Part shown: piece after piece, positions 2,995 to 19,090 of the stretch
How the letters are laid out: every line of letters begins with the position of its first letter
How positions within the stretch are numbered: position 1 is the stretch's first letter
Assembly: GCA_016865035.1 (NCBI GenBank)
Contig: CP018227.1
Span: 280,001 to 344,000, forward strand
Direction of reading: 5' to 3'
Length of the DNA: 64,000 nucleotides
DNA from: Kordiimonadales bacterium IMCC3096
GTDB lineage: Bacteria; Pseudomonadota; Alphaproteobacteria; Minwuiales; Minwuiaceae
Position numbers and translations under genes: made by a program
Notes under the pieces: generated by a model
Seen by the model: the letters and a program-made list of their open reading frames with translations, nothing else
What the model was told of the DNA's origin: nothing
The model's database searches: none

Positions 2995-3065
2995 CCCCGA
3001 TGCCAGAGTCCGGCGCATGCACGCTGGACAGCATTCACACCACTCTGCTAAAGCCGCCCGGCGCG

Positions 3066-3155
3066 GGACAGGTGGCCGAGTGGTTGAAGGCAGCGGTCTT
3101 GAAAATCGCCAAGGGTTAACCCCCTTCGTGGGTTCGAATCCCACCCTGTCCGCCA
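3066..3155 (+). tRNA. tRNA-Ser (anticodon UGA)
   Basis: The acceptor arms GGACAGG (3066-3072) and CCTGTCC (3145-3151) pair perfectly, followed by discriminator G and an encoded CCA. The anticodon loop reads CTTGAAA with anticodon TGA, the long variable arm expected of serine tRNAs is present, and the T arm contains GGTTCGAATCC. The last 14 nt of the gene (3142-3155) are repeated at 13416-13429, so this tRNA is the attachment site of the adjacent element and was kept intact by the integration. Confidence 0.97.
3142..3155 (+). repeat. attL: tRNA-side attachment core
   Basis: CACCCTGTCCGCCA is the last 14 nt of tRNA-Ser, including CCA, and is identical to 13416-13429. Flanking bases differ on both sides, so the identity block is exactly 14 bp. 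Confidence 0.9.
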
Positions 3156-3197
3156 ATCATATTTGATTTTATTGATAAATTTTCCGAATTTTTCGTC

Positions 3198-3221
3198 TAC
3201 CCCACATAATACCCCACTTAA
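3198..3221 (+). repeat. Tandem integrase arm-type sites, left end
   Basis: Two adjacent 12-mers, TACCCCACATAA (3198-3209) and TACCCCACTTAA (3210-3221), lie 43 bp inside attL. The 9-mer CCCCACATA recurs at 13277-13285 and, inverted, at 13332-13340 near the other end. Short repeats on both sides of the core are what lambda-type tyrosine integrases bind with their N-terminal domain; that role here is inferred. Confidence 0.7.
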
Positions 3222-3254
3222 GAGAACCGCCTGCACAGAAGGGCTGCGGCTGGA

Positions 3255-3805
3255 TCAGGGGTGGCTTGCGAGCAAAGCGGGCAATCTCGTTTGCATGTTC
3301 TCCATAAGCACCAGGGCGCATTCGACTGTCTCGCCCGTCATCGCTATCTGGAGTTGCCCTGCGGGTGCAGCCTGATCCCAGGCGAAATTCTGCGTGAGAA
3401 AGTCCAGAACGTCGCGCTTGTAGTCCGTGTCAGGGTTTTGCAGGTGATCGCCCTTTGTCTCCAGACCCACGACCCGCCCAGCGCCCGCCTTACCGCCAGT
3501 GGCGAAGATGAAGCCAGGATAGATGCGCCCGCGCTTCCAGCCTTGCAGGCCGTAGTTCGCCTTCGTCACGTTCCCGTGCCACCATCTCCCCGTCCAGCCG
3601 CAGCCGGAATTGAATCCGCTCGGCCCTCACGTCCAAATTGTCTGAAACAGTTGGTGCCGCTGAAGGGCACCGACAGCGACTTGTCGGATATCACCACGGC
3701 CACCAGCGGCGGCGCGACTTACCCTGCGGCCTGCGGCCCGGTCGAGCACTTCGTCGGCCCATTGTTTCAGGCTTTCGCCCGACAGCTTGGCAGCGGGAAG
3801 AGCGA
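3255..3805 (-). pseudogene. Remnant of Type III restriction subunit Res (C-terminal end)
   Basis: The open segment 3255-3569 encodes YGLQGWKRGRIYPGFIF, then VVGLETKGDHLQNPDTDYKR, DVLDFLTQNFAWD and ECALVLMENMQTRLPALL. This is the C-terminal PD-(D/E)xK nuclease end of Type III Res/DEAD-box restriction subunits as I recall them. The usual YPDF aspartate is Gly here (YPGF), although ETK is kept. Upstream, 3570-3805 holds further coding-like text in other frames (for example VRAERIQFRLRLDGEMV), interrupted by frameshifts and an apparent internal deletion, so no intact protein is possible. It lies directly downstream of the Type ISP gene on the same strand. Confidence 0.65.
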
Positions 3806-6800
3806 TCAACTCGGGATGTCGAGTTCGGGCAGGCTGTTCACAATCTTCATTGTCTCCAAACTCACGGTGATCACGCGGCGGAACAGGTCCAGCGGATAAC
3901 GCGGACTACCCACCGTCTCGTTGGCATAGTCATTGGCGTCGTTTACGATGCCGCTGTCCTTGTCCTGCTTGACCACCTGCCGTTCCATGACCCATTCCAG
4001 CGCGGGCTTGCCGTTGACCACATAGTCATATGCCTCAAGCGGAATATTCGTCATTGTGATGTTGCCGTTGTAGACAATGGTGGTGCGATCCTTTTCCTTG
4101 CCCTTGCCGCCGAACTTCATCTTCTTGACACGGTAGAACCTCACCGGGTCGTTCTGCGCCTCGTTTATCAGGCGATGATCGCCTTCCTTGAACGTGGCCA
4201 TATACGGCTCGATCGTCTCGAAATTCACGTGCAGGTCGCCCAAGGCGCGGCCAGCATCGCGAAAGGCGGAAAAATCCGCAAAGATGCGGACCGCTGGGAT
4301 GCGGGGCAGCGCCTTGGCGAGGTTGTTCCGGAACCGCTCGCGGTAGTCGGGCGCGTGCAGCAGGCCGTAGATGTAGTAGAATAGGTCTTCCTTGCTGATC
4401 TCCTGCCCCGGATAGGCGGCCTGAAAATGTGAGAGACCTGCATCGGTAATGGCATCGCGGCGGGTCAGGCCGGTTCCCTGATCCTCACCTGTGGCGAGGA
4501 GGCCCTCATCCGGTAGAGTTTCCTCGTAAAGGTAAAGTGGGAAGCACTGGCCGGAATCCACAGTGTGCAGGTTCGGCAACGCGTTCGACATCAAGGCAGC
4601 AAACCCTGCACTCGCACCTATCCCCGAGACCTGGATCACGAGATTCTTAGTGTTCGCATTGGGGAAGACACGAGGAATTTGGTAGACGCAATTGTTATAG
4701 TAACGGTCGAAATACATCCACCGATTGTCGAAAGGACGGTACAGGCCAAGGCGGACCGAACTTTCATTATAGGGCACCTTCTTGCCGCGCGGTACGTCGT
4801 TGCGCTGCACCCGATCCCAACTCATCCGCTTGGGGTCAGTATTGATGAAATCCTCGACACGCTGTTTCTTGTCCGATGCTTGAAAGCGATCAACCTCGGA
4901 ATTGTAGAAGTCGATCATTCGGCGCATGTTTCTCTCTAGCTTCGTCCGTGAAGCATTGTAGCACCAAGCATCTCGGTTGGTTTTGACGCCTTGAGAGTAG
5001 TTCTCGAAGAGGCCCTGGTCTTCACCACGCTTGGCCCCTATCAGAGGGAACTTGTCGAAACTCGGATCAGCTTGGTCAAGCCAGTCATTCTGCGCATCCG
5101 GAACAATCCGCATCCAACCTTGCGCGTCTGCGATACCGTCAATCGAGTGGAAGTCACGGATGATATTCAGCTTTTCCTGTTGGCTCAGGTAGTCGCCGAT
5201 GTCGTGGAATTGGATGCGTCCGTGTTCGGTGGCGGTCGGATTCTTCACGAAGACATAAATCGCAACTGGCGTTCGGGTGCCTTCACCGAACACGTTGCCC
5301 TTCTCCTTGCGGCGCTGCTCGCCAGAGGTTCGGGCATTGCCGCGAAGGTGGAACACGTAGAGGTCACTGAATTCTTCCGCGAGGCATTTGCGTAGCCCGT
5401 CGGTGGCGTTGCCGTCGATCCAGCCTGCATTCGTCACGTAGGCCATGACGCCTGCATTCCCGATCCGGTCCGATGCCCAGCGGATCGCGCGGATATAGCT
5501 GTCGTAGAGCGAGTTTTTCAGATATGCCGTCGAGTGAGCCGCGTAGGTGTCACGGATTTTCACGTCCAGTTGTGGATAGGCGATGTTCGCCGCGTTATCA
5601 TTTGCGCTGTTCTGCCCCGCCGAATAGGGCGGGTTGCCGATAATCACACGAATATCCAGTCCCTTTTGCCGCGTGCGGCGCTCGGAATTGTCCGGCAGAA
5701 GGTTCGCGACCATGTCGCGCTCCTGCTCGTACATCTGGAACGTGTCGGTCAGCAGGATGCCGCCAAACGGCTCATAGGGCGCGTCGTCGCTCAGATCGCC
5801 CTGCTTCAGCTCGTGATAGACCGTCTCGATGTTGATGGCGGCAATGTAGTAGGCCAGCAGAACGATCTCGTTGGCGTGTATTTCCTCGCGGTATTTGCGC
5901 GCCAGCTCATCTGGGGCGATCAGGCCGGATTGCAGCAGGCGGGTGATGAAGGTTCCCGTGCCGGTGAACGGATCGAGGATGTGGACGCCCTCGGACCCGA
6001 GCGTTTGACCGAACTGCGCCCTGAGCACGTCATTGACCGAGTGGAGGATGAAATCCACTACCTCGACCGGGGTATAGACGATGCCGAGCCGCTGGGTCAG
6101 GACCGGGAAAGCCCCTTTGAAGAAGCTGTCATAGAGTTTGTAGATCAGCTCCTGCCGTCCGTTTGCGGTGACCACATCGGCGGCGCGGCGTTCTACGCTG
6201 GCGTAGAACTTGGACAGGCTCTCGGATTCCTTGGCGAGGTTGTGTTCGTGAAGCTGCCCCAGGACCGTTTCCATCGCGCGGGAGACGGGGTTTTCCCTGG
6301 TGAACTGGCTGCCCTTGAACAGGGCGTCGAAGACGGGGCGCGTGATCAGGTGCTGGGCCAGCATCTCGATGGCCTCGGCCTCGGTGATTGAGGGGTTCAG
6401 GTCATCCTGAAGCTCTTCAAGAAAGGCAAGGAAAGCATCCCGCTCGGCCCCTGATTGCCCGACGATGGTGGTGATCCGCGTGATATGGGATTGAGCGATC
6501 TTGGCGATATCCTTGGCCCAGGTATCCCAGTATTCGCGGGTGCCGCATTTCTGGACGATCTTGGCCATGATGGCACGAGTGAATTCGTCGAAGACGAGCT
6601 CGCCCTGGCCAACATTGGGACCAGTCGGTCGCGCGGTGGGTGCTGCCTGACCGATGCCTGCACCAGCTTTCGCGGCCTTTGTCTTGTTGGTGGCGAAGTC
6701 ATCGACCACGGCGGTCAAATCTTTCAGTTCGGTCTCTGAAGCGATGCGGACCAACTCGACTTTGTCGCTGATATCCTCGCCCAACTCGGCTTGGTTGATC

Positions 6801-8692
6801 CGCGTGTCGAGGCGTTCATCGTGGGCACGCAGGGCGTTCAGAATTTGCCAAACGACCCTGTAGCGCTCGTTATCGTTCAGCGCTTCCTCGGGCTTGGTGT
6901 TTGGAGGGATTGCAACCGGCAGGATTACGTAACCGAGCTTCTTGCCTTCTGCCCGACGCATGACCCGCCCAACAGATTGCACCACGTCGATCTGGCTCTT
7001 GCGCGGGTGCATGAACATTATGGCGTCAAGGGCAGGCACATCGACGCCTTCGGACAAGACCTTGGCGTTGGTAAGGATACGACAGGTATCGTCACCTGCG
7101 TCCGCCTTGAGCCAACTCAACATTTCCTCGCGGGCGCTTGCATTGTAGCTGCCGTCGATATGTCGGACTTCGGCGCTCAAATGGCGTGCATCATCGACCA
7201 ACTCATTACCGGCATATTCATCGACAACTCTGGTGAACTCATCCTCGATGATCTTTGATTTTGCGATGCTCTGGCAAAACGCCAGCGCTCGCTTCATCGG
7301 GCGCGCATCGAATGTCAGGTCGCCCTTGAGGTCGCTCTTTGTCAGAGCTTTGTAGCATCCGATGATCTTGGTGGCATCATCCAGCGTCAGCTCTGCGCCT
7401 TCCTTGAGGCGGCTCTGGATGGTGCTGGAAATCAGCCCCTCATCCACGGCGAGCACCACGACCTTGTAGTCGGTCAGCAACTCCTGTTCGACTGCCCAGC
7501 CAAAGCCCCGGTGGAACAGGTCTTTTCCGAACTTGGTCTCATCATCCATCGAGGCCAACTCGGCTTCATGGTCATCGGCTTTGCGGCGCGCGGCTTCCCC
7601 GAAGATGCGGGGGGTGGCCGTCATGTAAAGGCGCTTGCGCGCCGTCACATAGTCGTTGCTGTGGATGCGGACGAAGTTGCTGTCATCCTCGTCCTTCAGG
7701 GTAACGCCTGTGGTCCGGTGCGCTTCGTCGCAGACCACCAGATCGAACTCGGGCAAGCCATGGTTCTTCTGCGCCCGCGTCAGCACGTCGATGGAGTGAT
7801 AGGTCGAGAAGACAACGGTCATCCTATCGGCAGGCGCATCCTTGACCTGGCGCGCTAGCTTCTCTGGGTCTGTCGTGGCCGGGAAGGCGAGGTCATGGAC
7901 ATTCAGATCGAGGCTGTCCGCATCAGCGTTACGCCCGACCTTGATGTCCGAACAGGCAGAGAAGGCCGTGAACTCTTCCTGGCAGTCGTTCTTCCACTCC
8001 CGCACAGTCTGAGACATCAACGCCAGCGATGGCACCATGAACAGGACGCACTTGCCTCGGCCCGCAATCGTTTCGGCAATGCAAAGGCCGGTGAAGGTCT
8101 TGCCCGTGCCGCAAGCCATGATGAGCTTGCCACGATCTGCCTTAGCTAGCCCTTCTGTGACAGCTTTCAGCGCATCCCGCTGGTGGTCCCGCAACTGCTT
8201 CTTGGGCGCAAGGCTGACATTGCCGGTTCGGATGAACTGCGACCAGTCGATCCGACTGGCTTCCAGCTCGCTGATGCCGATTCGGTTCCAGTCCTTCGAG
8301 AGCTTGTCGAGGGTTTCGTTCGTGTTGCGCCCGAAGTCCTTCTGAGTGGTGTCCGCGATGATCAGGCGCTTGAAGAGGTCATTTGAGGCCGCCGAGATGA
8401 AGCTGTTGATGTCGGGCTTCTGGATCACATGGCTGGGGGCGTAGAACTTGCACTGTATGGCCGCATACCCCGACCCGTCCGCGAGGGTGGCCACCAGGTC
8501 GATCCCGGTGTCTGCATTGCTCCAGCCATGCTCCTTGGCCCATTCTGCGAAAGGGACCACGGCGGAGTAGAACTGCTTCTGGATATCGTCGTTGGTGAGA
8601 AATACCCGGACCAAGCGCTCGAAATAGTCGCCCTTCTCACGCTCGTTGGTCGAGGCGGCACGGAAGGTTTCCAGAAGTTCGCTTAGCTGCAT
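3806..8692 (-). CDS. Type ISP restriction-modification enzyme (nuclease-helicase-methyltransferase)
   Basis: A 1,628-residue single polypeptide, slightly longer than LlaGI/LlaBIII (about 1,570-1,580). In order it shows an Mrr-like nuclease with GIDLVA (Asp65) and QCKFY (Gln80-Lys82); a superfamily 2 translocase with ACGTGKT (193-199), CDEAH (321-325), TAT (358-360) and QSVGRVMRR; a coupling region; an N6-adenine methyltransferase with DPFTGTGTF near residue 905 and NPPY near 1017; and a C-terminal target-recognition region. Such enzymes methylate one strand of an asymmetric site and cut DNA between two head-to-head unmodified sites after translocation, protecting against phages. All catalytic motifs look intact and no separate specificity subunit is needed. 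The recognised sequence cannot be predicted. Confidence 0.92.
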   Translation of the reverse strand: MQLSELLETFRAASTNEREKGDYFERLVRVFLTNDDIQKQFYSAVVPFAEWAKEHGWSNADTGIDLVATLADGSGYAAIQCKFYAPSHVIQKPDINSFISAASNDLFKRLIIADTTQKDFGRNTNETLDKLSKDWNRIGISELEASRIDWSQFIRTGNVSLAPKKQLRDHQRDALKAVTEGLAKADRGKLIMACGTGKTFTGLCIAETIAGRGKCVLFMVPSLALMSQTVREWKNDCQEEFTAFSACSDIKVGRNADADSLDLNVHDLAFPATTDPEKLARQVKDAPADRMTVVFSTYHSIDVLTRAQKNHGLPEFDLVVCDEAHRTTGVTLKDEDDSNFVRIHSNDYVTARKRLYMTATPRIFGEAARRKADDHEAELASMDDETKFGKDLFHRGFGWAVEQELLTDYKVVVLAVDEGLISSTIQSRLKEGAELTLDDATKIIGCYKALTKSDLKGDLTFDARPMKRALAFCQSIAKSKIIEDEFTRVVDEYAGNELVDDARHLSAEVRHIDGSYNASAREEMLSWLKADAGDDTCRILTNAKVLSEGVDVPALDAIMFMHPRKSQIDVVQSVGRVMRRAEGKKLGYVILPVAIPPNTKPEEALNDNERYRVVWQILNALRAHDERLDTRINQAELGEDISDKVELVRIASETELKDLTAVVDDFATNKTKAAKAGAGIGQAAPTARPTGPNVGQGELVFDEFTRAIMAKIVQKCGTREYWDTWAKDIAKIAQSHITRITTIVGQSGAERDAFLAFLEELQDDLNPSITEAEAIEMLAQHLITRPVFDALFKGSQFTRENPVSRAMETVLGQLHEHNLAKESESLSKFYASVERRAADVVTANGRQELIYKLYDSFFKGAFPVLTQRLGIVYTPVEVVDFILHSVNDVLRAQFGQTLGSEGVHILDPFTGTGTFITRLLQSGLIAPDELARKYREEIHANEIVLLAYYIAAINIETVYHELKQGDLSDDAPYEPFGGILLTDTFQMYEQERDMVANLLPDNSERRTRQKGLDIRVIIGNPPYSAGQNSANDNAANIAYPQLDVKIRDTYAAHSTAYLKNSLYDSYIRAIRWASDRIGNAGVMAYVTNAGWIDGNATDGLRKCLAEEFSDLYVFHLRGNARTSGEQRRKEKGNVFGEGTRTPVAIYVFVKNPTATEHGRIQFHDIGDYLSQQEKLNIIRDFHSIDGIADAQGWMRIVPDAQNDWLDQADPSFDKFPLIGAKRGEDQGLFENYSQGVKTNRDAWCYNASRTKLERNMRRMIDFYNSEVDRFQASDKKQRVEDFINTDPKRMSWDRVQRNDVPRGKKVPYNESSVRLGLYRPFDNRWMYFDRYYNNCVYQIPRVFPNANTKNLVIQVSGIGASAGFAALMSNALPNLHTVDSGQCFPLYLYEETLPDEGLLATGEDQGTGLTRRDAITDAGLSHFQAAYPGQEISKEDLFYYIYGLLHAPDYRERFRNNLAKALPRIPAVRIFADFSAFRDAGRALGDLHVNFETIEPYMATFKEGDHRLINEAQNDPVRFYRVKKMKFGGKGKEKDRTTIVYNGNITMTNIPLEAYDYVVNGKPALEWVMERQVVKQDKDSGIVNDANDYANETVGSPRYPLDLFRRVITVSLETMKIVNSLPELDIPS

Positions 8693-8707
8693 GGTAAGGC
8701 TGCCCTG

Positions 8708-9070
8708 TTAAATGATCTTGATGTCAGGCGCATGAGCGGCGCTGACTGGCCAAGCGCTTCCCTCGCACCCCTTCAGCATATTGATCTCTGCCTCGACCGG
8801 CGGGCGAAAGGCTTCCTGGACAATCATAGGTGCAGACTTGCGGGCTTCTGGGCCTTGCTCACACTTCCGCTTCGCCTTGCGCTTTTCCTCCCGTGCGATC
8901 TTTAGGTAGGCCCCTGCCAGTTCCCCAACGTGCTCGATTGGATCGACAGGCAGATGACAGGACATGGTTTCATGATCGACATCTTCATCAGCGCCAGCAC
9001 GGGCAGGAGACGGCACCGCAAGGTGATAATTCCAGACGAATTCCTTGCCCTTGAAAACCAGTTCCGTCAT
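8708..9070 (-). CDS. Small protein with Type III Mod-like N terminus, possibly a remnant
   Basis: This 120-residue frame starts MTELVFKGKEFVWNYHLAVP, which closely resembles the first 20 residues of Type III-like site-specific DNA methyltransferases (Mod). After residue 20 the resemblance ends: there is no IHGDNLHAL stretch and no DPPY catalytic motif, and the rest is a charged segment (YLKIAREEKRKAKRKC) of no family I recognise. It lies 15 bp upstream of the ISP start and probably shares its transcript. It may be a truncated, fused mod gene or a small protein in its own right. The Mod resemblance is from memory of the family, not from an alignment. Confidence 0.55.
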   Translation of the reverse strand: MTELVFKGKEFVWNYHLAVPSPARAGADEDVDHETMSCHLPVDPIEHVGELAGAYLKIAREEKRKAKRKCEQGPEARKSAPMIVQEAFRPPVEAEINMLKGCEGSAWPVSAAHAPDIKII

Positions 9071-9140
9071 CGCGCGCCCCCTGCTTTGCGTCGATAGAAC
9101 AGAAAACCCCGCACCGGGGCAACAGCCGGTTTGCCCGTCG

Positions 9141-10160
9141 CTACACCATTCCCCGGATCAATTCACCCTGCCGTGATGGCGACACGGGGCAATAGGCGCT
9201 GAGCGTGGTAGCGATATTCTCGTGGCCAAGGTTCATTGACCAGGCTTTGAATTGCTCCGGGGTCTTGCAATGGTCGTTCGCCAGAAGGCCAAGGGTCTTG
9301 CGGAAACCATGCGGGGCAAAGGCGGGCAAACCTGCGCTCGTGAAGGCGTCCTTGACCACGGTGCGCAACTTGCCCGCGTTGGTGTAGGTCTCGCGCGACA
9401 GGCCCAGGTTGGCAAACGCGCCGTCCTTCAGCCCCATCCTTGGCTTGGGAAACAGGGCGTCATTCGGGCCAAACAGTTCCTCTTGCCGCAGGTATGTCAC
9501 CCAATCGCGGAAGGCTTGCAGATAGGCATCATCGACCGGGAAAAACCATGTGGTGAAGGTCTTGGCAAACTTGGTATTCACGTCGCGGGCGTCCTGATAG
9601 ATGCAACTCTCCACAAGATCGACATGCTTCAGGCGCATGGACGCAACCGCCCCGTCCCGCGCGCCGGTCAACATCAGGAAGGCAAAGAGGGCCTTGTCGC
9701 GGCGCTGCAAGGGCGTCGCGCCGGGCATCTGCGCAAAGGCGTGACGGCACTGTTCCAGGGTCGGGTGGATCGTATCGCGCGCCGTGTGGGCGATGCGGGC
9801 GTCCTTGGCGTTCAGGTTGAAATACTCGGCGTCAGCATAGGCGATGCGCGACTTGTAGCCGGGCTGCCCTGCCAGCCAGAGAACGAACGCCTTGACCATG
9901 CGCAGGGTGCCATCGACCGTGGCCTTGGAAAGCGGCGCGCCGGTGCGGGCGTTTTTCTCGTTCGACAGGTGCCGTTTGAATGCGACAGCATGATCAATGT
10001 GGAAGCGTTTGAACGGCTTGAAGCCGGTGCTTCGCTCGAAGCGCAGAATGGCTTCGGCGGCCTTGTCAACCGTGGCCATGTCGCTGCGTTTGGCTTCACG
10101 CAGGAATTGCAGGTAATGCCGTTTGATGCGCTCGTTTTCTTCATGGAATTTCCGGGCCAT
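9141..10160 (-). CDS. Tyrosine recombinase (second, internal)
   Basis: A 339-residue protein when started at the ATG at 10160, which follows a good ribosome site (GGAAAGGA about 7 nt upstream); a longer start at 10241 would overlap the preceding gene. The N-terminal half has a SAM-like core-binding domain and the C-terminal half carries a complete catalytic set: Arg in TGARDGAVAS, HGFRKT (HxxR), GHENIATTL and the nucleophile in LSAYCPVSP. It is unlike the P4-type integrase in the same element. It may act in excision, dimer resolution or cargo inversion; it is not next to either attachment site, so the role is open. Confidence 0.85.
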   Translation of the reverse strand: MARKFHEENERIKRHYLQFLREAKRSDMATVDKAAEAILRFERSTGFKPFKRFHIDHAVAFKRHLSNEKNARTGAPLSKATVDGTLRMVKAFVLWLAGQPGYKSRIAYADAEYFNLNAKDARIAHTARDTIHPTLEQCRHAFAQMPGATPLQRRDKALFAFLMLTGARDGAVASMRLKHVDLVESCIYQDARDVNTKFAKTFTTWFFPVDDAYLQAFRDWVTYLRQEELFGPNDALFPKPRMGLKDGAFANLGLSRETYTNAGKLRTVVKDAFTSAGLPAFAPHGFRKTLGLLANDHCKTPEQFKAWSMNLGHENIATTLSAYCPVSPSRQGELIRGMV

Positions 10161-10209
10161 TATGCGTCCTTTCCGAAGTGATGGTTCAAGAGGGGTTCCG
10201 TGGTATCCT

Positions 10210-10635
10210 TTAGGCTCGTGGCCCCTCTTTGATCGCAACACAGAAAATCTCGCTGAAATGGTCGATCTTCGACCGGCTGATCATGCGATTGCAGGTGCCC
10301 CCGCACGCATCACAAAGCCCCAGAAGTCGGGCAGTCTTCGCGGTTTGTGGAATGCAGTCGACCATCAGTCCCATGGGCGTGCGTCCTGCCTTGCAGGTCA
10401 GGCAATAGAGTTGATCCTGTTGCAGTGGTGCCTTTGACGCTTTCGCCCTGTCTTCCAGGAAAATGCGCAGGGAGTCCCCAAGAATCAGGAATGGCCGCCT
10501 TGATCTCATTAGGGGCAGACCGGACTTCACCCAACTGCGGATCGTGCCGATGGACACGCCAACCGCAATGGCCGCTTCCTCGACTGTGTAGGTGCGCGCC
10601 GCTCGAATGGTGCGGGGGTTTGGACGCTTAGGCAT
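10210..10635 (-). CDS. HTH protein with C-terminal zinc-ribbon-like region
   Basis: A 141-residue protein. Residues ~15-45 (YTVEEAAIAVGVSIGTIRSW) form an excisionase/MerR-like helix-turn-helix. The C-terminal half has two cysteine pairs, YCLTCKAG and LCDACGGTC, spaced as a zinc ribbon. It lies immediately upstream of the second recombinase and is probably co-transcribed with it. This arrangement suggests a DNA-binding partner or directionality factor for the recombinase, but that is inference. I do not recognise a named family covering both halves. Confidence 0.75.
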   Translation of the reverse strand: MPKRPNPRTIRAARTYTVEEAAIAVGVSIGTIRSWVKSGLPLMRSRRPFLILGDSLRIFLEDRAKASKAPLQQDQLYCLTCKAGRTPMGLMVDCIPQTAKTARLLGLCDACGGTCNRMISRSKIDHFSEIFCVAIKEGPRA

Positions 10636-10668
10636 ATGAAACCCGCCCGAGACCGTTTCGCGCCTGCA

Positions 10669-10863
10669 TCAGGGCATTGTCCGGGTCGAGGCTTTTGCGA
10701 CCTCCCATGCCTCGATCTCGGACAATCGCCAGCGCGTGCAACCGGGGCTGAGTTTGACGGGCTTGGGAAAGGTCGGATCTTCGCTGGCCCAGCGCCGGGG
10801 GGTCAGATGATGAACCGCATAGCGCGCCCCAAGCTGGCGGTCGGAAAGATACGTCTCGGGCAT
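10669..10863 (-). CDS. AlpA-like regulator / excisionase
   Basis: The start at 10863 is chosen because GGAGG lies five bases upstream; in-frame ATGs at 10875, 10905 and 10929 lack this. The 64-residue product MPETYLSDRQLGARYAV...HHLTPRRWASED...FPKPVKLSPGCTRWRLSEIEAWE is a typical AlpA/MerR-type winged helix, the size of P4 and CP4-57 regulators that switch on integrase expression or help excision. The neighbouring P4-type integrase on the same strand fits this role. Confidence 0.8.
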   Translation of the reverse strand: MPETYLSDRQLGARYAVHHLTPRRWASEDPTFPKPVKLSPGCTRWRLSEIEAWEVAKASTRTMP

Positions 10864-10987
10864 TCGTGCCTCCATAGTTTCGCTATGGGGCGCATCCTCA
10901 TGCATCCGTTCGACAAAATGAATATTCAAAATCAGTCGCTTAAGCGGATTGAGAAAAGCCGCTCATGGCCCAAGCACTCTGCCGCAA

Positions 10988-11962
10988 TCAATCGAACCGC
11001 TTAGGCGGTTTGGCTGGATACAGTGCTTCGTATCGGGCTTTCAGGTCTTCACCAGCCTCCCCGCGTCGGATTTCGCCAACATACTCCATCACCTGCCCCC
11101 TGCCTTGACGCCACAACAAAAAGTCGGCCTCGATTGCTCTGTTGAGCGCAAGTTCCGCCACGGATGCGATTCCAAGCTTCACGACATCTGGATTCCGCTG
11201 TGCAACATCTTCGAGCGCATCCATAAGGGCGGCTCGGCGCGCCTCGCGTGCCTGCGAAGACCTTCTGCTACCGGATTCCCCTGCCTTCTTGCGTGTTTCG
11301 ATTGCCTTCTGAGCTTCTGCTTCGACCTGGTGCGCCAAAATCTCAAGGTCTCTCCAGTGAAAACCTGCCGAGAAATCATCCTCTGTTATGTAATAGTGAT
11401 ACTGATAAGATGCGGCGACAAAGGCAGGTGACGAATGGGGCAGATTGAGCCAGCAAAATTCGAATGCAGCGACAACCTGCCAATTTTCGCCGAATCTCTC
11501 CTTCAATTCTTCCATTTTTCGATTGTCGAGAAACTCAATAACTTCACGTGATAGAACATCAACTTTATTCTTGTCATAAATTCCAGAATTTTTGAGAACA
11601 TCAAAGGCAAGTGGTGATTCGCGATCTCCGGCATCTATTTCAAATGGAAATCCTTTTTTGATCAACTCATGAAATATATCTTTGTCTCTGGTTATTGAAA
11701 AACTAAGTTCGGAAATTTCACTTCCTACAGGGTGTTGTTTCTTGTACTCATCCGCCTCAAATTCGCTAAAGAGAATAGTACTTGTGACTTCGACAGGCTT
11801 CAAGCCGGTGCGATAGTGAAGATAAACCATCCAGACTTCATCTGCCGCTTCATTTCCTCTCATTTGATGCGCAGAAGGAAAAAATGCGTCACCACGACGA
11901 AGGTGATTGATATTTACATTCTGGATGATGGTCTTGCGCGTCGGACGTCTTAGCTCATGCAT
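10988..11962 (-). CDS. Unknown island protein, 324 aa
   Basis: The ATG at 11962 overlaps the integrase stop by eight bases, so the two are translationally coupled; an upstream ATG at 11983 is possible. I recognise no family. The N-terminal two thirds are hydrophilic and mixed alpha/beta with several aromatic stretches (SYQYHYYITEDDFSAGFHWR near residue 200). The C-terminal third is helical and charged with a run of Lys/Arg/Glu (EAQKAIETRKKAGESGSRRS). Base composition between about 11500 and 11900 is clearly more AT-rich than the surrounding sequence, suggesting separate acquisition. No signal peptide or membrane segment is seen. Position inside a defence island makes an accessory or anti-phage role possible but unproven. 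Confidence 0.7.
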   Translation of the reverse strand: MHELRRPTRKTIIQNVNINHLRRGDAFFPSAHQMRGNEAADEVWMVYLHYRTGLKPVEVTSTILFSEFEADEYKKQHPVGSEISELSFSITRDKDIFHELIKKGFPFEIDAGDRESPLAFDVLKNSGIYDKNKVDVLSREVIEFLDNRKMEELKERFGENWQVVAAFEFCWLNLPHSSPAFVAASYQYHYYITEDDFSAGFHWRDLEILAHQVEAEAQKAIETRKKAGESGSRRSSQAREARRAALMDALEDVAQRNPDVVKLGIASVAELALNRAIEADFLLWRQGRGQVMEYVGEIRRGEAGEDLKARYEALYPAKPPKRFD

Positions 11963-13256
11963 GCCCGACCTCCAGCTTGACAACCTTGCCGCTCTGGATT
12001 TTCCCGCTCATGAAATCCGCCCAATCGGCCATCATGCGCCGCCGCTTCTCAATCATGTCGCCGCGCCGGTAGCTGGCCTCCACGGCATTGCTGATCTTGT
12101 GTGCCAGAGCGACTTCGGCCATGTCGCCGGGATAGTTGGTTTGTTCCGCCACCCAATCGCGAAACGTCGACCGCAGGCCATGCGGTACGGCGGGCCGCTT
12201 CGACGTCCGGTCAATGAAACCCGTGCCGCCTTGAGCAAGCTCTGCCTCGTGCATCCGCCTCATGGTGGCCGATAGCGTCATGTCGGACAACTGCCCGCCC
12301 CGCGCTGCCGGGAACACAAGCGGGTTGCCCTTGAGGCGGGGCAGGGCCTTGAGCATCTTCACCGCAGCAGCAGACAGGGGAATGCGGTGTTCCTTGCCCA
12401 TCTTCATGCGGGCACCTGGAATGATCCAAAGCGCCTTGTCGAAGTCGATCTCATCCCAAGCCGCGCCCCGAACCTCTTGCGACCGCGTGGCGGTCAGGGC
12501 GGCAAGTTCCAGCGCCCGCGCCCCAAATCCTTCTCGGGTCCGCAAGGCGGCAAGCCAGCGCGGCGCGTCATCCAGCGCCAGAGCCGGGTGGTTGCCTTCT
12601 TTCGCCACCCTGGACGGTGGCGGCAACAGTTCCTTGAGGTTGCCCGCCCAGCGTGCCGGATTGTCACCATGCCGATGCCCCGCGACCGTGGCCCAACTCA
12701 AGACAGCCTCAATCCGACCGCGCAGGCGTGATGCGGTTTCGGTCTTGTCCATCCATAGCGGTTGCAGCACGCGCACTACGTCCTGTGTCGTGATGTCCTG
12801 CACCAGCATCTTTCCAAGGTCAGGGGTGGCATAGGTCGCAAGCGTGTTTTCCCATTGCTGGCGGTGCTTCGCGTTCTTGAAGGCATCGAGCTTGGCGGCA
12901 AGGGCCTTGTCCACCGCGTCGGCAAACGTCAGCCCACGGCGCTGGGCGGCCACCAGCGCGGCCTTGGTGGCCTTGCGTTCCTCTACCGGGTCTATGCCCC
13001 TATCGATCTTGGCGCGCGCTTCTCGGGCTTTGTCACGGGCCTGCGACAGCGTCACGCCGGGAAAGCCCCCAAGGCCCAGGTCCCGGCGCAGGGTGCCGAC
13101 CTTGACGCGCAAGACCCAGGACCGCCCGCCGTTCGGCGTGAGTTGCAGGTAGAGGCCGGGCACACCACCGACCGAACACAAGACATTCCGCTTGCCGCCC
13201 GGATGGGTCAGCCTCTTGACGTCCAGCGCGTTGAGTTCTTCGGCAACCTTTGGCAT
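11955..13256 (-). CDS. int: P4-type tyrosine integrase
   Basis: A 433-residue site-specific integrase. The start at 13256 gives MPKVAEELNALDVKRL followed by a DUF4102-type arm-binding domain (GLYLQLTPNGGRSWVLRVKV, residues ~30-90), a core-binding domain (~110-200) and the catalytic domain with Arg in TATRSQEVRG, HGLRSTFRDW (HxxR) and LAHKISNAVEASYRR (His and Tyr nucleophile). It drives integration at the tRNA-Ser end. The gene start is only 160 bp from attR, and arm-type repeats occupy 13263-13286 and 13332-13340 immediately upstream, so integrase binding could autoregulate its promoter. It is at the opposite end of the element from the tRNA. Confidence 0.95.
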   Translation of the reverse strand: MPKVAEELNALDVKRLTHPGGKRNVLCSVGGVPGLYLQLTPNGGRSWVLRVKVGTLRRDLGLGGFPGVTLSQARDKAREARAKIDRGIDPVEERKATKAALVAAQRRGLTFADAVDKALAAKLDAFKNAKHRQQWENTLATYATPDLGKMLVQDITTQDVVRVLQPLWMDKTETASRLRGRIEAVLSWATVAGHRHGDNPARWAGNLKELLPPPSRVAKEGNHPALALDDAPRWLAALRTREGFGARALELAALTATRSQEVRGAAWDEIDFDKALWIIPGARMKMGKEHRIPLSAAAVKMLKALPRLKGNPLVFPAARGGQLSDMTLSATMRRMHEAELAQGGTGFIDRTSKRPAVPHGLRSTFRDWVAEQTNYPGDMAEVALAHKISNAVEASYRRGDMIEKRRRMMADWADFMSGKIQSGKVVKLEVGHA

Positions 13257-13262
13257 CGATCT

Positions 13263-13343
13263 TATCCCACATTGTACCCCACATAAAATTTGTAGCCGGG
13301 TGCATAGGATTGCGCAAGGTTGCATAGGCGCTATGTGGGGTTT
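13263..13343. repeat. Integrase arm-type sites, right end, over the int promoter
   Basis: TATCCCACATTG (13263-13274) and TACCCCACATAA (13275-13286) are tandem and match the left-end pair. TATGTGGGG at 13332-13340 is the same 9-mer inverted. They lie between the int start (13256) and attR (13416). The rest of the gene-free stretch 13257-13589 holds attR and a short unremarkable segment up to the end of the DMT transporter gene. Confidence 0.7.
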
Positions 13344-13415
13344 GATCAGGAATTCAGCGTGATTCAGGAAACGCAAGCATCTGATCGCAAAGGATAAAGA
13401 AGGCATCATGGCGGG

Positions 13416-13429
13416 CACCCTGTCCGCCA
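13416..13429 (+). repeat. attR: distal attachment core
   Basis: An exact 14-bp copy of the tRNA-Ser 3' end, CACCCTGTCCGCCA. Host sequence resumes with CGATTTTCTG. Confidence 0.88.
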
Positions 13430-13589
13430 CGATTTTCTGTCTCACGCTCAACGCGCCGTGTTCACCCGCTCCGACGGGGTGCCCATGCGGGCGGTCACGC
13501 CGACGTGCGTCGGTTCTCCACGCATCCAGCCCTGGTGACTCTCAGCCCTGTCCAGTGGATGGGCAGGGGTTCAGCGGGGCCACCATCGT

Positions 13590-14573
13590 CTAGGCTTCCG
13601 GTGCGGTGTGCCGGAGCCTGCCTTTTCTCAGACTCGCGAGCGTAAGGCCATAGATGCAGGCGACCACGACTGCCAGGGCGACGACCTGGTGAGGTGCGAT
13701 GGCATCGCCGAGGAACGGGACGGCAAGGACCATCGTGAAGGCAGGCCAGGGTGTGGTGATCGAACTGGCCAATGACACATCGATATGGCGGACAGCGTAG
13801 AACCAGACGAGCAGTTCCAGGAAGTAGACCAGCCCCATGAGGGCCGACATTGCATGGAAAATGGCGCCTATGCCTGAAGCGAACCCTGACGGGACAGCCA
13901 CGGCCAGAACGACCGCCAGAAACAGCGTCGAGACCGCCACCCGGAAGAACGTGACCTGCACCGGCGTTATGGGCGTTTTGCTGAGCTCCTCCTTGATGAT
14001 GACATGGGCGATACTCCACAGCAGGGGCACCCCGAGAGACACGAGGAACCAGGGCGACAGGCTCGACATCAGGAAAGTGCCGCCGGTGCCGAGGCAGTAG
14101 AGTGCGCCGATCAGAACAACTGTCAGGGCCAGTTCGACTGCGGTCTTGCGCCGTTTCAGGAACAGGGACTCCCAAAGGATCGCGAACAGCGGGTAGGCCT
14201 GGATCGCAATGGCTGCATTCGCCGCACCGGCCTTTTCGACCCCCAGAACGTACAGATAGGTCGAGAGGCCGAAAAGCATGCCGGTGAAGAGCGCGACGCG
14301 TATCATCCGGTCACGTTGCCGGCGGGACAGATCAATGCCGAAAATCCCCCTGCCGCCCCTTCGCAGTTCCCATCCGAACACCGGCGCAGCGAACACCACC
14401 TGCCAGACAGAGAGCGCAAAGGCGAAGCCGAGCGCCCCGATATCGGACGGGCGCAGGTTGGAGATAATCGGCATGACTCCGAGCAGCATGAGGCTGACCA
14501 GGGAGAGGACGATGCCTTTCCCGACTGACGGAGAGAAAAGTGCCATGACTGGAGTCCATGATTGCATTGACAC
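13590..14573 (-). CDS. DMT-superfamily (EamA) transporter
   Basis: A 327-residue inner-membrane protein with about ten hydrophobic segments arranged as two EamA repeats (roughly residues 15-150 and 180-310). Drug/metabolite transporters of this type export or import small metabolites such as amino acids. It is transcribed divergently from a MocR-type regulator with only 51 bp between the starts, and that gap carries repeated TGCAAT boxes, so it is very probably the regulator's target. The substrate is unknown; the partner's PLP domain suggests an amine or amino-acid ligand. Confidence 0.85.
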   Translation of the reverse strand: MSMQSWTPVMALFSPSVGKGIVLSLVSLMLLGVMPIISNLRPSDIGALGFAFALSVWQVVFAAPVFGWELRRGGRGIFGIDLSRRQRDRMIRVALFTGMLFGLSTYLYVLGVEKAGAANAAIAIQAYPLFAILWESLFLKRRKTAVELALTVVLIGALYCLGTGGTFLMSSLSPWFLVSLGVPLLWSIAHVIIKEELSKTPITPVQVTFFRVAVSTLFLAVVLAVAVPSGFASGIGAIFHAMSALMGLVYFLELLVWFYAVRHIDVSLASSITTPWPAFTMVLAVPFLGDAIAPHQVVALAVVVACIYGLTLASLRKGRLRHTAPEA

Positions 14574-14583
14574 CCACAGTCAC

Positions 14584-14609
14584 TGCAATCACACATTTAT
14601 CAGTGCAAT
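14584..14609 (+). promoter_or_regulatory. Direct repeats, probable MocR operator
   Basis: TGCAAT occurs at 14584-14589 and 14604-14609, 20 bp apart (about two helical turns), in the longer contexts CACTGCAAT and CAGTGCAAT. An inverted ATTGCA is at 14561-14566. Direct repeats between the divergent starts are typical of MocR/GntR binding sites; binding itself is inferred. Confidence 0.55.
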
Positions 14610-14624
14610 AGAAAGATTGATCTG

Positions 14625-16019
14625 ATGGCAATTTGGATTCCCGATCTGTCGGGGCGTGATGGCCCGAAATATCTCCGGATCGTCGAGGCGATGGCGGAGG
14701 ATATTGCGACGGGACGCCTGCCCGCAGGGACACGCCTGCCACCGCATCGTGAACTGGCCTATCAACTCGGCATATCCCCGAACACGACCAGCCGGGCCTA
14801 CGCGGAGGCGGTAAAGCGGGCGCTGCTGAAGGGTGAGGTGGGTCGGGGGACCTTTGTGCGGTCGATCGCCCCCGATCCGGCGCAGGCGGAACCCGAAACC
14901 CTTCGCCGGGCAGAGAGCGGGCCGATTGACCTGTCGCGCAACCTGCCGATGCCGGGGGTGTCAGAGCAGCACGTCCGCCGCGTGATGTCCGGGATTGCCG
15001 ACACTGTGCACTTGCGATCCCTCCTGGACTACCAGACGGATGCAGACCTCCTGCACCACCTGGAGGCGGGTCAGATATGGCTCGCGCGTTGCGGCCTTGA
15101 ATCGGACCTCGATTGCATCGTTCCGGTCATCGGCGGGCAGCACGGGATCCTGTGCATCCTCATGGCGCTCTTGCAGCCGGGCGATCTGCTGCTGACGGAG
15201 TCGCTGACCTACACGCCGGTGCTCACAATGGCAGCCCGTCTCAACCTGCAGACCGGAGGTGTCGCGATGGACGGCGAAGGTGTGGTGCCGGAGGCTTTCG
15301 AGGCCTGGTGCCGCAAGGCAAACCCCAAAGCCTTCTATCTGACGCCGACCCTGCAGGCTCCCAAGACGATCACGTTGTCCAGGGCGCGACGGATGAGGAT
15401 CGCGGAGATCGCCGCGCGCCATGGCGTGGTCCTGATCGAGGACGATGTGTTCGGACCACTCAAGCGCGAGAAGCCCGCGCCGCTGGCACAGGTTGCGCCT
15501 GAGACGGCAATCTACGTGACCAGCCTGTCCAAGACGGTCGCGCCCGGACTGCGGGTGGGCTTTCTGAAGGCACCGAAGAAGTTCGTCCCTGCCCTTCATC
15601 AGTCGGTCAATCTGAGCGTCTGGATGACGCCGCCGATGACCCTCGAAGTTGCCAGCCGGTTGATCAAGGATGGCACCGCGGAGAGGTTGACCGGCCAGCA
15701 GAGACGAACCGCCGCGCATCGCCAGCAACTGGCGCGCAGCGTACTGGGCGCGGAGGCGATCCCGGAGGTCTCGGAGGGTTTCCATACCTGGGTGCCCCTC
15801 CCCGACGGCTGGCGTGCCGATGTGTTCTGCGCGGAATGCGCCCGCCTAGGCGTTCGGATCAGCGAGGGCCGCAGCTTCGCCGTCAACGCGGGTGATGCGC
15901 CAGAAGCCATCCGTCTCTGCGTCAGCCACGAGGCAAGTGAAGAGCGGCTGCAACGCGGCCTCGAAATTGTCGCGGGTGTGCTGCGGCAGAAGCCGACCTG
16001 GTCGTCGATGGTGATCTGA
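14625..16019 (+). CDS. MocR-family regulator (GntR HTH + aminotransferase domain)
   Basis: A 464-residue protein. Residues ~15-80 form a GntR winged helix (DIATGRLPAGTRLPPHRELA, QLGISPNTTSRAYAEAVKR). Residues ~100-455 form a fold-type I aminotransferase domain with the PLP-binding lysine in SLSKTVAPGLR (Lys303) and an IEDDVF motif upstream. MocR proteins sense amines or amino acids through PLP and usually activate a neighbouring divergent gene, here the DMT transporter. It ends before a perfect 12-bp hairpin at 16168-16200. Confidence 0.9.
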   Translation: MAIWIPDLSGRDGPKYLRIVEAMAEDIATGRLPAGTRLPPHRELAYQLGISPNTTSRAYAEAVKRALLKGEVGRGTFVRSIAPDPAQAEPETLRRAESGPIDLSRNLPMPGVSEQHVRRVMSGIADTVHLRSLLDYQTDADLLHHLEAGQIWLARCGLESDLDCIVPVIGGQHGILCILMALLQPGDLLLTESLTYTPVLTMAARLNLQTGGVAMDGEGVVPEAFEAWCRKANPKAFYLTPTLQAPKTITLSRARRMRIAEIAARHGVVLIEDDVFGPLKREKPAPLAQVAPETAIYVTSLSKTVAPGLRVGFLKAPKKFVPALHQSVNLSVWMTPPMTLEVASRLIKDGTAERLTGQQRRTAAHRQQLARSVLGAEAIPEVSEGFHTWVPLPDGWRADVFCAECARLGVRISEGRSFAVNAGDAPEAIRLCVSHEASEERLQRGLEIVAGVLRQKPTWSSMVI

Positions 16020-16167
16020 CCAACAGCCAGACCGCGAAATCGGCCATCCGTCGCGCCCCGCGGAATGTGTCTGAATGAGCTCGAAGCCGTCGCAGGGAAC
16101 AGGTGCACGGAGAGCCCACGATCAGCCGGCAGGGGGTGTACGGACGTGGCCGCATCCTCGACAGATC

Positions 16168-16200
16168 TTCATCGAACGCATGTCTCTGGCGTTCGATGAA
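16168..16200. terminator. Hairpin between converging genes
   Basis: TTCATCGAACGC (16168-16179) and GCGTTCGATGAA (16189-16200) form a perfect 12-bp stem with a 9-nt loop. It sits between the MocR gene and a gene ending at 16241 on the other strand. No clear T-run follows on either side, so a bidirectional terminator is likely but not certain. Confidence 0.55.
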
Positions 16201-16240
16201 GTACGTGCAGCAATGGGGCCCGGTCCTGGAGCCCCGTTTC

Positions 16241-17149
16241 CTACCAATCGGTCTTCAGGAACCTCTGCGCGAGGAAGGTATAGAGAGCGGAAATCGCCCG
16301 CCGTACGCTTTCCCTGGTCTCGAATTTCGGCGCTTTCCACTCTTCCTCGATCTCCGACCAGACAAGTGTGCCCATGTGCAGGTCATCGCGCTCGACACGA
16401 ACGAATTCGATGACATTCGGCAGGTTGCTGAGGGCGGAAACCACATCGTCGATCTGTGCATCGACATTCTCGAACTTCCGTCTGAATTCCTTCGTCGCAT
16501 TATCGGCCAGCAGATCCGCGCGAATGGCGTTCTCCAGCGACTGGGAGTCGGCCTTCAGCAACCCTTGGGCAGCTTTCAGATGCCGCCGGATCAGAAAAAC
16601 CCAGTGATAATATTCACGAAGCGCGTGGATGTATGAAAGCTCCCGACCGAGACGCTCGATCATCTCCACGACCTTTTCCCGGCTGTCGAGCTTCAGGGCT
16701 TCCGCAGCCTGCTCGAAGCCCTTCTGGATGTTCTTCTGAACATCCGGGTCGTCAAGCAACTTGGTCATGGCGGCGTTGTCTGCCTTGGTGACACTCTCTC
16801 CCGACACCCAGGAGGCCAGCTTCAGCATCAACTGGTTCTTGGCAGACTCGAAGTGTTCCGGTCCGATGGGCCAGGACGCCGTTCCGTCGATAATCTCGGT
16901 CGGGATCGAATCGCCCGGAGAGATGTATTGAACGAACTTCAACGCGTCCTGGGCAACGCCGATCAGCTCATAGTCTTTCGAATCCGGCGCAATGCCGAAC
17001 TCCTTGACCAGCCCCTCGATCGACAGGGCCGCATGGAGTTCACCCATCTCCACATGCAGCATGGGCTTGCGATCCGCCCCGGTGCCGAAGATATACGCGC
17101 CCGGGAGAGTGAAAATTCGGTGCTCGAAATCGAAACTGGTTACTTCCAT
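16241..17149 (-). CDS. Unknown protein, 302 aa, mostly alpha-helical
   Basis: The start at 17149 (MEVTSFDFEHRIFTLPGAYIF) is preferred over 17254 because the extra residues look non-coding. I recognise no family. The N-terminal ~110 residues look like a compact beta-rich domain. Residues ~120-260 are helical and charged, with LKLDSREKVVEMIERLGREL and FENVDAQIDDVVSALSNLP suggesting long helices or a coiled coil. There is no signal peptide or membrane segment. It lies downstream of a CheZ-like gene on the same strand, which hints at signalling or motility, but the 300-bp gap carries a hairpin and the genes may be independent. Confidence 0.65.
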   Translation of the reverse strand: MEVTSFDFEHRIFTLPGAYIFGTGADRKPMLHVEMGELHAALSIEGLVKEFGIAPDSKDYELIGVAQDALKFVQYISPGDSIPTEIIDGTASWPIGPEHFESAKNQLMLKLASWVSGESVTKADNAAMTKLLDDPDVQKNIQKGFEQAAEALKLDSREKVVEMIERLGRELSYIHALREYYHWVFLIRRHLKAAQGLLKADSQSLENAIRADLLADNATKEFRRKFENVDAQIDDVVSALSNLPNVIEFVRVERDDLHMGTLVWSEIEEEWKAPKFETRESVRRAISALYTFLAQRFLKTDW

Positions 17150-17451
17150 CGTCCTGGCCAGATCCCGCTTGGTATGTTGAGGCTGGTGTCGGCAGCCTGT
17201 GCCTTGCCACGTGATATTCGTATCATCGGACAGGTTAACGATGCTTGAATTCAAAGCCTGCCTGATACCTGCACATCATCTTCAGACAAATCTTGTCTGA
17301 GGCCCCGTAGCTCCCCTTTCAATACTCAATACCCGGAACGGAAATCCGCCGGTTATTGAAATATCCGCCGTAAAGTCCTCATGAATTCACGGAATCCGAA
17401 AATTGCATGCCTCTGAAAGCAGGATCCACTGATGCAGATGCTGTCCGTACT
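17150..17451. other. Gene-poor gap with a short palindrome
   Basis: No gene is seen here. TCAGACAA (17282-17289) and TTGTCTGA (17293-17300) form a perfect 8-bp dyad with a 3-nt centre, which could be an operator for the gene starting at 17149 or a terminator for the one ending at 17452. Confidence 0.4.
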
Positions 17452-18018
17452 TCAGAGGGATTGGCGGCCTTGCCACCTGGGCCTCTGAATGGCCAGCATC
17501 TGGCCATCGGACCAGATCAGGCCTCGGCTCCGGATCAATCGGCCATCAGCTTGTCGACCATTTCCTGATCCACCGTCATGTCCAGGCCTGGACCGGAAGC
17601 CCCCGGGGCAGCACGGCGGCCACTGATCCGGTTCCGAAAGTCGGCGACGCATCTCCAGCAGCCTCTGCCCAACGAGGTCTTGGAAATCAAACGCCTGAAC
17701 GATCTTGCTGCTGGCAGCCTGCGTCTTCTTCCTGTCTCCCGCCGCGTCGGAGAGACTGTCGACAGCCTCCAGAATCGCATCGGCCGAACTTGCAAGCTTC
17801 TCCAGACTCAGATTGATCTGGCGCTCCAGATACGAGCGGTCATCCGCAGAAAGTTCCGCCTGTGCGGAGTCGGTCTTGCTCTTCCCGCCTCGCTTGCTGT
17901 AGTCGACGGCGATACTGGAAAGCTTGTTGACGAAGCCCCGCAACTCGATCGTGCCAAGCGGATGCTTCCGGTCGACCAGTGCATCGATGTAAGGTCTGAG
18001 TTCCTTCTCAAGCGACAT
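17452..18018 (-). CDS. CheZ-like protein phosphatase, frameshifted near the C terminus
   Basis: The first ~135 residues are helical and contain IVQAFDFQDLVGQRLLEMRR, which matches the CheZ active-site helix (FQDxxGQR, with the catalytic Gln). CheZ dephosphorylates CheY-P in chemotaxis. After about residue 140 this frame becomes unlike a protein (QWPPCCPGGFRSRPGH), while the next frame reads SGPGLDMTVDQEMVDKLMAD and stops at 17535, a good match to the acidic CheY-binding tail of CheZ. A one-base change near the C/G run at about 17600-17612 would restore it. It is either a real frameshift or a sequencing error. No other chemotaxis gene is nearby. Confidence 0.6.
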   Translation of the reverse strand: MSLEKELRPYIDALVDRKHPLGTIELRGFVNKLSSIAVDYSKRGGKSKTDSAQAELSADDRSYLERQINLSLEKLASSADAILEAVDSLSDAAGDRKKTQAASSKIVQAFDFQDLVGQRLLEMRRRLSEPDQWPPCCPGGFRSRPGHDGGSGNGRQADGRLIRSRGLIWSDGQMLAIQRPRWQGRQSL

Positions 18019-18245
18019 GGTTCTGTGCCCTCCAATGCATGCCTTGATTGCCCCGGATCAGCAAGATTCGAGCTCGGAGTGGAAGCACGCCTGCACCAGC
18101 CGGTCGGGATCCAGAACGATGGCAGTCTCGTTGCCGATCCTGGCGATGCGGGTACATTTGCGCTGACAGCAGACATTCAAGCGCGCCGGCCACGCCTCAC
18201 CCAGCGCGCAAGAATCTCCTGAAAATCGTCAAAAATTCCGGCGAC

Positions 18246-18259
18246 TTGACCCACATCAA
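18246..18259 (+). promoter_or_regulatory. FNR/Anr-like box upstream of ompW
   Basis: TTGACCCACATCAA matches the consensus TTGAT-N4-ATCAA at nine of ten positions and lies 72 bp before the ompW ATG. The surrounding gap 18019-18331 holds no gene. Confidence 0.55.
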
Positions 18260-18331
18260 GAACCCGGAGCCGTCCCGGAACCAGAATGAAATCTCAGCCA
18301 ATCAAGGCAATCGATATCTGGAGCCGCGACA

Positions 18332-19012: not shown

Positions 19013-19090
19013 TCAGCGGTGCGTGGACGGACCTGCCAATGTCCCTCCACGCATTCCGCATCCGTCGATCAGCCGGATGCCGCTGAAGCA

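Follow-up and report, generated by a model that had tools for sequence, protein, structure and literature searches.

We describe an integrative element in which an intact gene for a Type ISP restriction-modification enzyme lies between the two ends of a Type III mod-res operon. It is found in the window, by which we mean the whole 64,000-nucleotide stretch analysed here from Kordiimonadales bacterium IMCC3096 (contig CP018227.1, positions 280,001 to 344,000), and the same element with the operon intact occurs in a congeneric genome (G008, locus L043). Very probably, the window element descended from a Type III carrier in which foreign ISP-bearing DNA replaced most of mod-res. The ancestor would have carried the Type III operon beside an hth-int1 gene pair. 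Incoming DNA with a Type ISP gene, for which a plasmid or some other mobile element is the probable source, would then have replaced mod-res in one or more steps, sparing ~380 bp of res and the first ~24 codons of mod. The integration machinery would have stayed where it was, leaving a different restriction system on the same vehicle. We infer the direction of this swap; its end product is directly observed. A prior sequence-only reading had proposed that an incoming ISP gene took the place of the inside of an older restriction operon, and this is borne out by the G008 operon, with whose ends the window remnants are collinear.

The element and its intact counterpart

The element spans 10.3 kb, lies in a tRNA-Ser(TGA) gene and is bordered by a 14-bp direct repeat, CACCCTGTCCGCCA, at 3142-3155 (the end of the tRNA) and 13416-13429. 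Its features are as follows.

3066..3155, plus: tRNA-Ser (anticodon TGA; ARAGORN), the integration target, whose 3' end is the att core 3142-3155
3197..3217, minus: tandem GTGGGGTA repeat near the distal att, a putative arm-type integrase site
3255..3594, minus: remnant, 3' end of Type III res, with the same stop codon as the intact res in G008
3590..3633, minus: second res fragment
3729..3795, minus: remnant, 3' end of a hicB antitoxin gene (86% over 66 bp; 76% at the amino acid level over 21 residues)
3806..8692, minus: intact Type ISP restriction-modification enzyme, 1,628 aa (Pfam, motifs, omega)
8765..8974, minus: remnant similar to the C-terminal portion of a small plasmid protein linked to ParA, making up most of a 120-aa frame
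8998..9070, minus: remnant, first ~24 codons of Type III mod, by comparison with G008 (secure part 9011-9070)
9141..10241, minus: int1, a tyrosine recombinase of 366 aa adjoining the cargo slot
10210..10635, minus: hth, a small helix-turn-helix protein (below the Pfam cut-off) overlapping int1
10669..10929, minus: AlpA-like regulator (Pfam)
10988..11983, minus: 331-aa protein with no Pfam match, less conserved than its neighbours
11955..13451, minus: int2, a P4-type integrase with an arm-binding domain (extent of the listed open frame; homologous start near 13265)
13416..13429, plus: second att core; the G008 element has its own second core at L043 8899

The integration site is empty in two congeners (G008 contig C45 and G004 contig C14), where the left flank joins the sequence that follows window position 13429; G005 has the left flank, with no match to the right-hand stretch. 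Thus, integrase, att direct repeats, placement at a tRNA 3' end and an empty site in relatives together mark an integrative element. It is probably moved by int2, because this protein has an arm-binding domain and lies beside the att site, and int1 is probably also a recombinase. The tandem GTGGGGTA repeat could be an arm-type site of the integrase. Between int2 and AlpA, the 331-aa protein shares 79% identity with its counterpart in G008, against 88-97% for its neighbours, and by eye the differences are concentrated in one stretch. Beyond the element, G008 lacks window 13480-19116 at the corresponding place, its flank jumping to window 19117; G004 keeps part of this stretch of ~5.6 kb, in which a transporter-like and a MocR-like gene were named by eye.

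The search of related genomes for a copy of the element whose mod-res operon is intact led to G008. Among nine genomes of the family, its own included, the 120-aa frame and a 104-aa frame ending at 3255 match the own genome and G008 alone. Both G008 matches lie on one contig, inside a 571-aa Mod and an 866-aa Res encoded by overlapping genes (base 2841 of L043 belongs to both the mod stop and the res start), and PADLOC assigns this cargo to MTase_III and REase_III; it is hence a Type III system with mod and res in one operon, of which the ends alone are left in the window. By blastn, window 8998-13437 is 92.4% identical to L043 4485-8920 over 4,445 bp, window 3057-3594 is 85% identical to L043 41-580, and window 3590-3633 agrees with L043 749-792 at 40 of 44 bases; int1 is 97% identical at the protein level. 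Because these alignments join the backbone and both remnants to L043, the window carries the L043 element minus the interior of mod-res, with the ISP gene between the operon ends. Pfam gives nothing in either remnant, and the congener was therefore needed to identify them; such blanks would fit chance resemblances, or unrelated fragments on an island that never carried a Type III system. As both remnants correspond to the ends of a single complete operon, in L043, with which the backbone and att structure are shared, that explanation is refuted for practical purposes.

The G008 copy lies in tRNA-Ser GCT and is accompanied by a repeat of that gene's 3' end, CATCCTCTCCGCCATT. Since the window copy is in tRNA-Ser TGA, the element has entered two different tRNA-Ser genes. 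The earlier idea of an exchange at one island position hence holds for one element lineage and fails for a single tRNA site.

The remnants, the Type ISP enzyme and their junctions

On the minus strand the order is int1 (9141-10241), the 120-aa frame (8708-9070), the 1,628-aa frame (3806-8692) and the 104-aa frame. The Mod start, ISP enzyme and Res end previously read from the sequence do follow one another in this order, with two of the extents drawn too long. Thus, of the 120-aa frame, taken as a whole for a Mod N-terminus, only ~8998-9070 (~24 codons) is Mod. Residues 1-21 match the 571-aa G008 Mod at 90% identity (E 1.2e-6), and at the DNA level the backbone homology extends as far as window 8998, being solid to ~9011; identity with G008 spans the 70 bp before mod and then ~20-24 of its codons. 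Residues 33-102 instead resemble the C-terminal region of a small protein adjoining ParA on a 17.9-kb plasmid of Roseivivax marinus (database E 0.3, which is weak; local E 3.8e-9). This plasmid protein (P0001) matches nothing but the window in 385 genomes of the class and, among plasmids at E 0.001, only itself. The view that the old promoter was kept gained no support: although the 70 bp upstream of mod differ from G008 at one base, a sigma-70 consensus scan gave no promoter and one terminator-like site, about chance level. A terminator-like hairpin at 9106-9120, between int1 and the mod start, was not above chance expectation in the scan.

The other extent, 3255-3805, had been assigned to the Res C-terminus; 3255-3633 is indeed Res, 3729-3795 belongs to another family as the end of a hicB gene, and 3634-3728 gives no Res match. 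At the amino acid level, 3255-3569 is 91% identical to the C-terminus of the intact G008 Res (E 7.3e-62). The second fragment lies 168 bp further into the gene and is in a different frame from the first, because the 168 bp between the two are missing; the pieces overlap shortly at the joint (3590-3594). Over 315 bases the res remnant is 91.7% identical to G008, with 19 of the 26 differences at third codon positions. This pattern, part of which is supplied by the G008 copy that is still a gene, suggests that res was broken recently relative to the divergence of the two copies. As the third-position excess implies that much of the divergence arose under selection, the swap was probably late.

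The intervening gene codes for a typical Type ISP enzyme, in agreement with the initial reading. In a single chain it combines Mrr_cat_2, ResIII, Helicase_C, ISP_coupler, N6_Mtase and Type_ISP_C domains (an Mrr-like nuclease, helicase, coupler, N6 methyltransferase and Type_ISP_C), and the nuclease, Walker A, DEAH, methylase and NPPY motifs are all present. In PADLOC it falls under the IIG and Type I single-chain models. Related loci number 32. Against four relatives omega is 0.08-0.12, where dS, at 1.3-1.7, is close to saturation. LlaGI, LlaBIII and other Type ISP enzymes are single chains that unite an Mrr-like nuclease and a helicase with a coupler, a methyltransferase and a specificity domain; they recognize an asymmetric site methylated on one strand and cleave between head-to-head sites. 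Such an enzyme methylates host DNA at the enzyme's own site and cuts unmodified DNA after ATP-driven translocation. The window enzyme has the same one-chain domain layout as LlaGI and LlaBIII, with nothing unusual seen in it. It is predicted to be active, and the present cargo would then provide ISP-type restriction in a host where there had been Type III restriction.

In the nine family genomes, the own one included, no donor of the ISP gene was found, the sole other match being a distant, methylase-like one in G008 (29% over ~250 residues). The segment 3634-3728 has no match in these genomes, and plasmids gave one weak match (E 0.2) touching its edge. Together with 8693-8997, it gave no convincing match beside ISP genes in other loci, nor in the family genomes barring a 27-base match in G006. 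A match of 36 bases to a DUF6880 gene on a plasmid was set aside as weak (E 0.03). The ends of hicB and of the plasmid protein beside the ISP gene hint at a plasmid-like donor.

As the junctions fall within mod and res, at a distance from int1 and the att sites, joining by illegitimate recombination is most likely. More than one event may separate the old operon from the present state, since extra gene pieces accompany the ISP gene. These pieces, together with the separate 168-bp internal deletion in res and the short overlap at its joint, would also fit a stepwise variant in which the ISP DNA was inserted without loss and the remainder of mod and res was deleted later. No intermediate of such a course was seen, and because its end result is the same, sequence alone does not separate it from replacement, with which it is compatible; we give it a real chance, somewhat short of even.

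Comparison with known defence systems

Defence hotspots have been described in phages, their satellites and genomic islands (PMC9122126; PMC12629846). Those of PMC9122126 resemble the present locus in having a short slot between conserved mobile-element genes that holds many defence systems with high turnover. They differ in that the present slot is bounded by int1 and the distal att and still contains stubs of the former tenant, and that a Pfam scan of eight frames gave no phage or satellite gene besides the integrases and the AlpA-like regulator. Those eight frames of 3255-13451 contain no replication or capsid-hijack genes, which places the element outside the P4-like phage satellites. The Pseudomonas genomic-island hotspots (PMC12629846) share tRNA linkage and modular defence cargo, for which module exchange was suggested; those islands are called large, whereas the ten elements here with clear ends measure ~7-15 kb. 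Restriction specificity also changes at a Type III locus through the diversity of the modA recognition domain in Neisseria and Haemophilus; however, a domain of one gene varies there (PMC3311624), whereas here a whole system of another type replaces the operon.

Cargo turnover in mobile defence hotspots is thus known, while the element family considered below and a swap that leaves both stubs appear to be new. Neither is mentioned in titles and abstract openings on Type ISP transfer, tRNA islands, defence-element turnover or replaced and remnant restriction genes, a body of text that mostly excludes subscription journals and whose silence is weak evidence. The turnover of defence genes is usually inferred from loci with different systems; here both ends of the former tenant persist, and comparison with the intact copy of a sister species makes the swap junctions readable and their age estimable.

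Cargo among the relatives of int1

An int1 match is present in 23 of 385 genomes of the class (own included), and no match was obtained at E 1e-10 among 50,697 phage records. Of the 25 places outside the own genome we used 20, together with two congeners (G007, G008) and two of the four plasmid records, and added L014, L016 and L032 from the search with the ISP enzyme. R195, K224, H311, R314, H340 and Y350, which we take to be active-site residues of the tyrosine-recombinase type, are identical in all 24 aligned rows, one of them partial. The hth gene precedes int1 in 20 of 25 loci, and a tRNA stands directly before int2 in 13 of 25.

The cargo adjoining int1 is of several unrelated kinds. Type III systems occur in L043, L090, L092, L096, L097, L104 and L108, Type I in L091 and L105, MmeI-like IIG enzymes in L045, L098, L100 and L107, and ISP enzymes in the window, L014 and L032, as well as in L109 with one gene between. 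Other cargo comprises HmaABC (L093), a methylase-specificity protein (L094), QatC (L101) and PDC-S11 (L102). A resolvase-like gene (named by eye) separates int1 from the cargo in L093 and L094, and the cargo gene faces int1 in L100, L101 and L102. No defence or restriction-modification gene was found after int1 in L095, L099, L103, L106, L016 and the two plasmid records examined, PADLOC having covered only L103 among these, with one protein.

Restriction-modification matches turned up no further than 6 kb past int1 at 14 of 24 loci; for other integrases, with 7 kb considered on both sides, the figure is 2 of 20 (Fisher p 0.0014). This comparison favours the int1 loci in that the references, always taken from other loci, stem from int1 loci. 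From a start of 28 loci, 17 with a match, we dropped L014, L032 and the window, which had been met through ISP or the finding itself and all had matches, and L016, which had come through ISP and had none; L043, first met through the finding's own frame and then through int1, was retained. With same-locus references barred, L093, L094, L101 and L102 count as misses despite their PADLOC defence genes. The 20 controls were hand-picked open frames of at least ~380 aa, searched on both sides without a PADLOC scan, some of them clipped by contig ends.

A tree of int1 was built from 24 rows (the broken L106 omitted, the partial L109 dropped and L043 added). Stars mark nine of its 21 inner branches, the branches of L108, L016 and L101 are long, and the 16 rows labelled Type I, III, ISP or IIL require at least nine cargo changes. 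All five starred two-row clades join different cargo:

window and G008: ISP and Type III; end branches 0.01
L092 and L032: Type III and ISP; end branches 0.05-0.11
L104 and L105: Type III and Type I; end branches within 0.25-0.41
L093 and L094: Hma and methylase-specificity protein; end branches within 0.25-0.41
L097 and L100: Type III and IIL; end branches within 0.25-0.41

Only the first two pairs are close, and as the window and L032 were found through the finding or the ISP search, two of the five were not sampled blindly. Elements related to this one, in other bacteria, seem to change restriction cargo in the same slot. In the ISP gene of L032 (1857-4178, Amylibacter cionae) the middle has been lost in frame, with residues ~520-1376 missing, so that this cargo is itself decaying. 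Unlike the L092/L032 pair, the window still has edges of the old cargo.

The presence of ISP genes beside int1 elsewhere raises the alternative that the window acquired its gene by homologous recombination from a related int1 element. This could draw on L014, L032 and L109, and on the L092/L032 pair, whose DNA homology ends at the int1 stop codon. However, as far as mod codon 24 the window backbone remains close to that of G008, and its ISP-flanking DNA has no convincing match beside ISP genes in the loci collected (best tblastx E 3.5e-4, in L016, ~4 kb from the ISP gene). We therefore consider this route unlikely and favour replacement by foreign DNA.

We also considered whether hth-int1 defines an undescribed family of compact tRNA-borne elements dedicated to carrying exchangeable restriction systems, in which int1 itself takes part in cargo change. 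The points in its favour are the constant place of int1 and its intact residues. Repeats common to the int1 end and the distal end of the slot were at most 7-10 bases long in nine elements, at shuffle level in eight, with the direct repeat of L014 one base above shuffles. As the slot ends of eight of nine elements thus lack a repeat above shuffle level, there is no support yet for a role of int1 in the exchange, and we regard this proposal as distinctly improbable. As one vehicle with several unrelated restriction systems, the int1 family nevertheless offers a set for studying how replacement proceeds without harm when the old methylation is lost.

Among 20 loci tested for att repeats, seven (L090, L092, L093, L096, L097, L100, L014) have a tRNA before int2 and a second att copy beyond the cargo, and three (L098, L104, L108) have the tRNA beyond the cargo and a copy on the far side; matches were doubtful in three (L099, L103, L105) and absent in seven. 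The ten elements with clear ends span ~7-15 kb, and by eye a tandem TGTGG/GTGGGG-like repeat lies near the distal end in nine of nine elements inspected. Two further genes or gene groups, named by eye, were seen at these loci: an HsdM-like gene before int1 in L106 and, just past the distal att of L090 (oriented, 11705-16508), TniQ and TnsA/B/C-like genes of a Tn7-like transposon.
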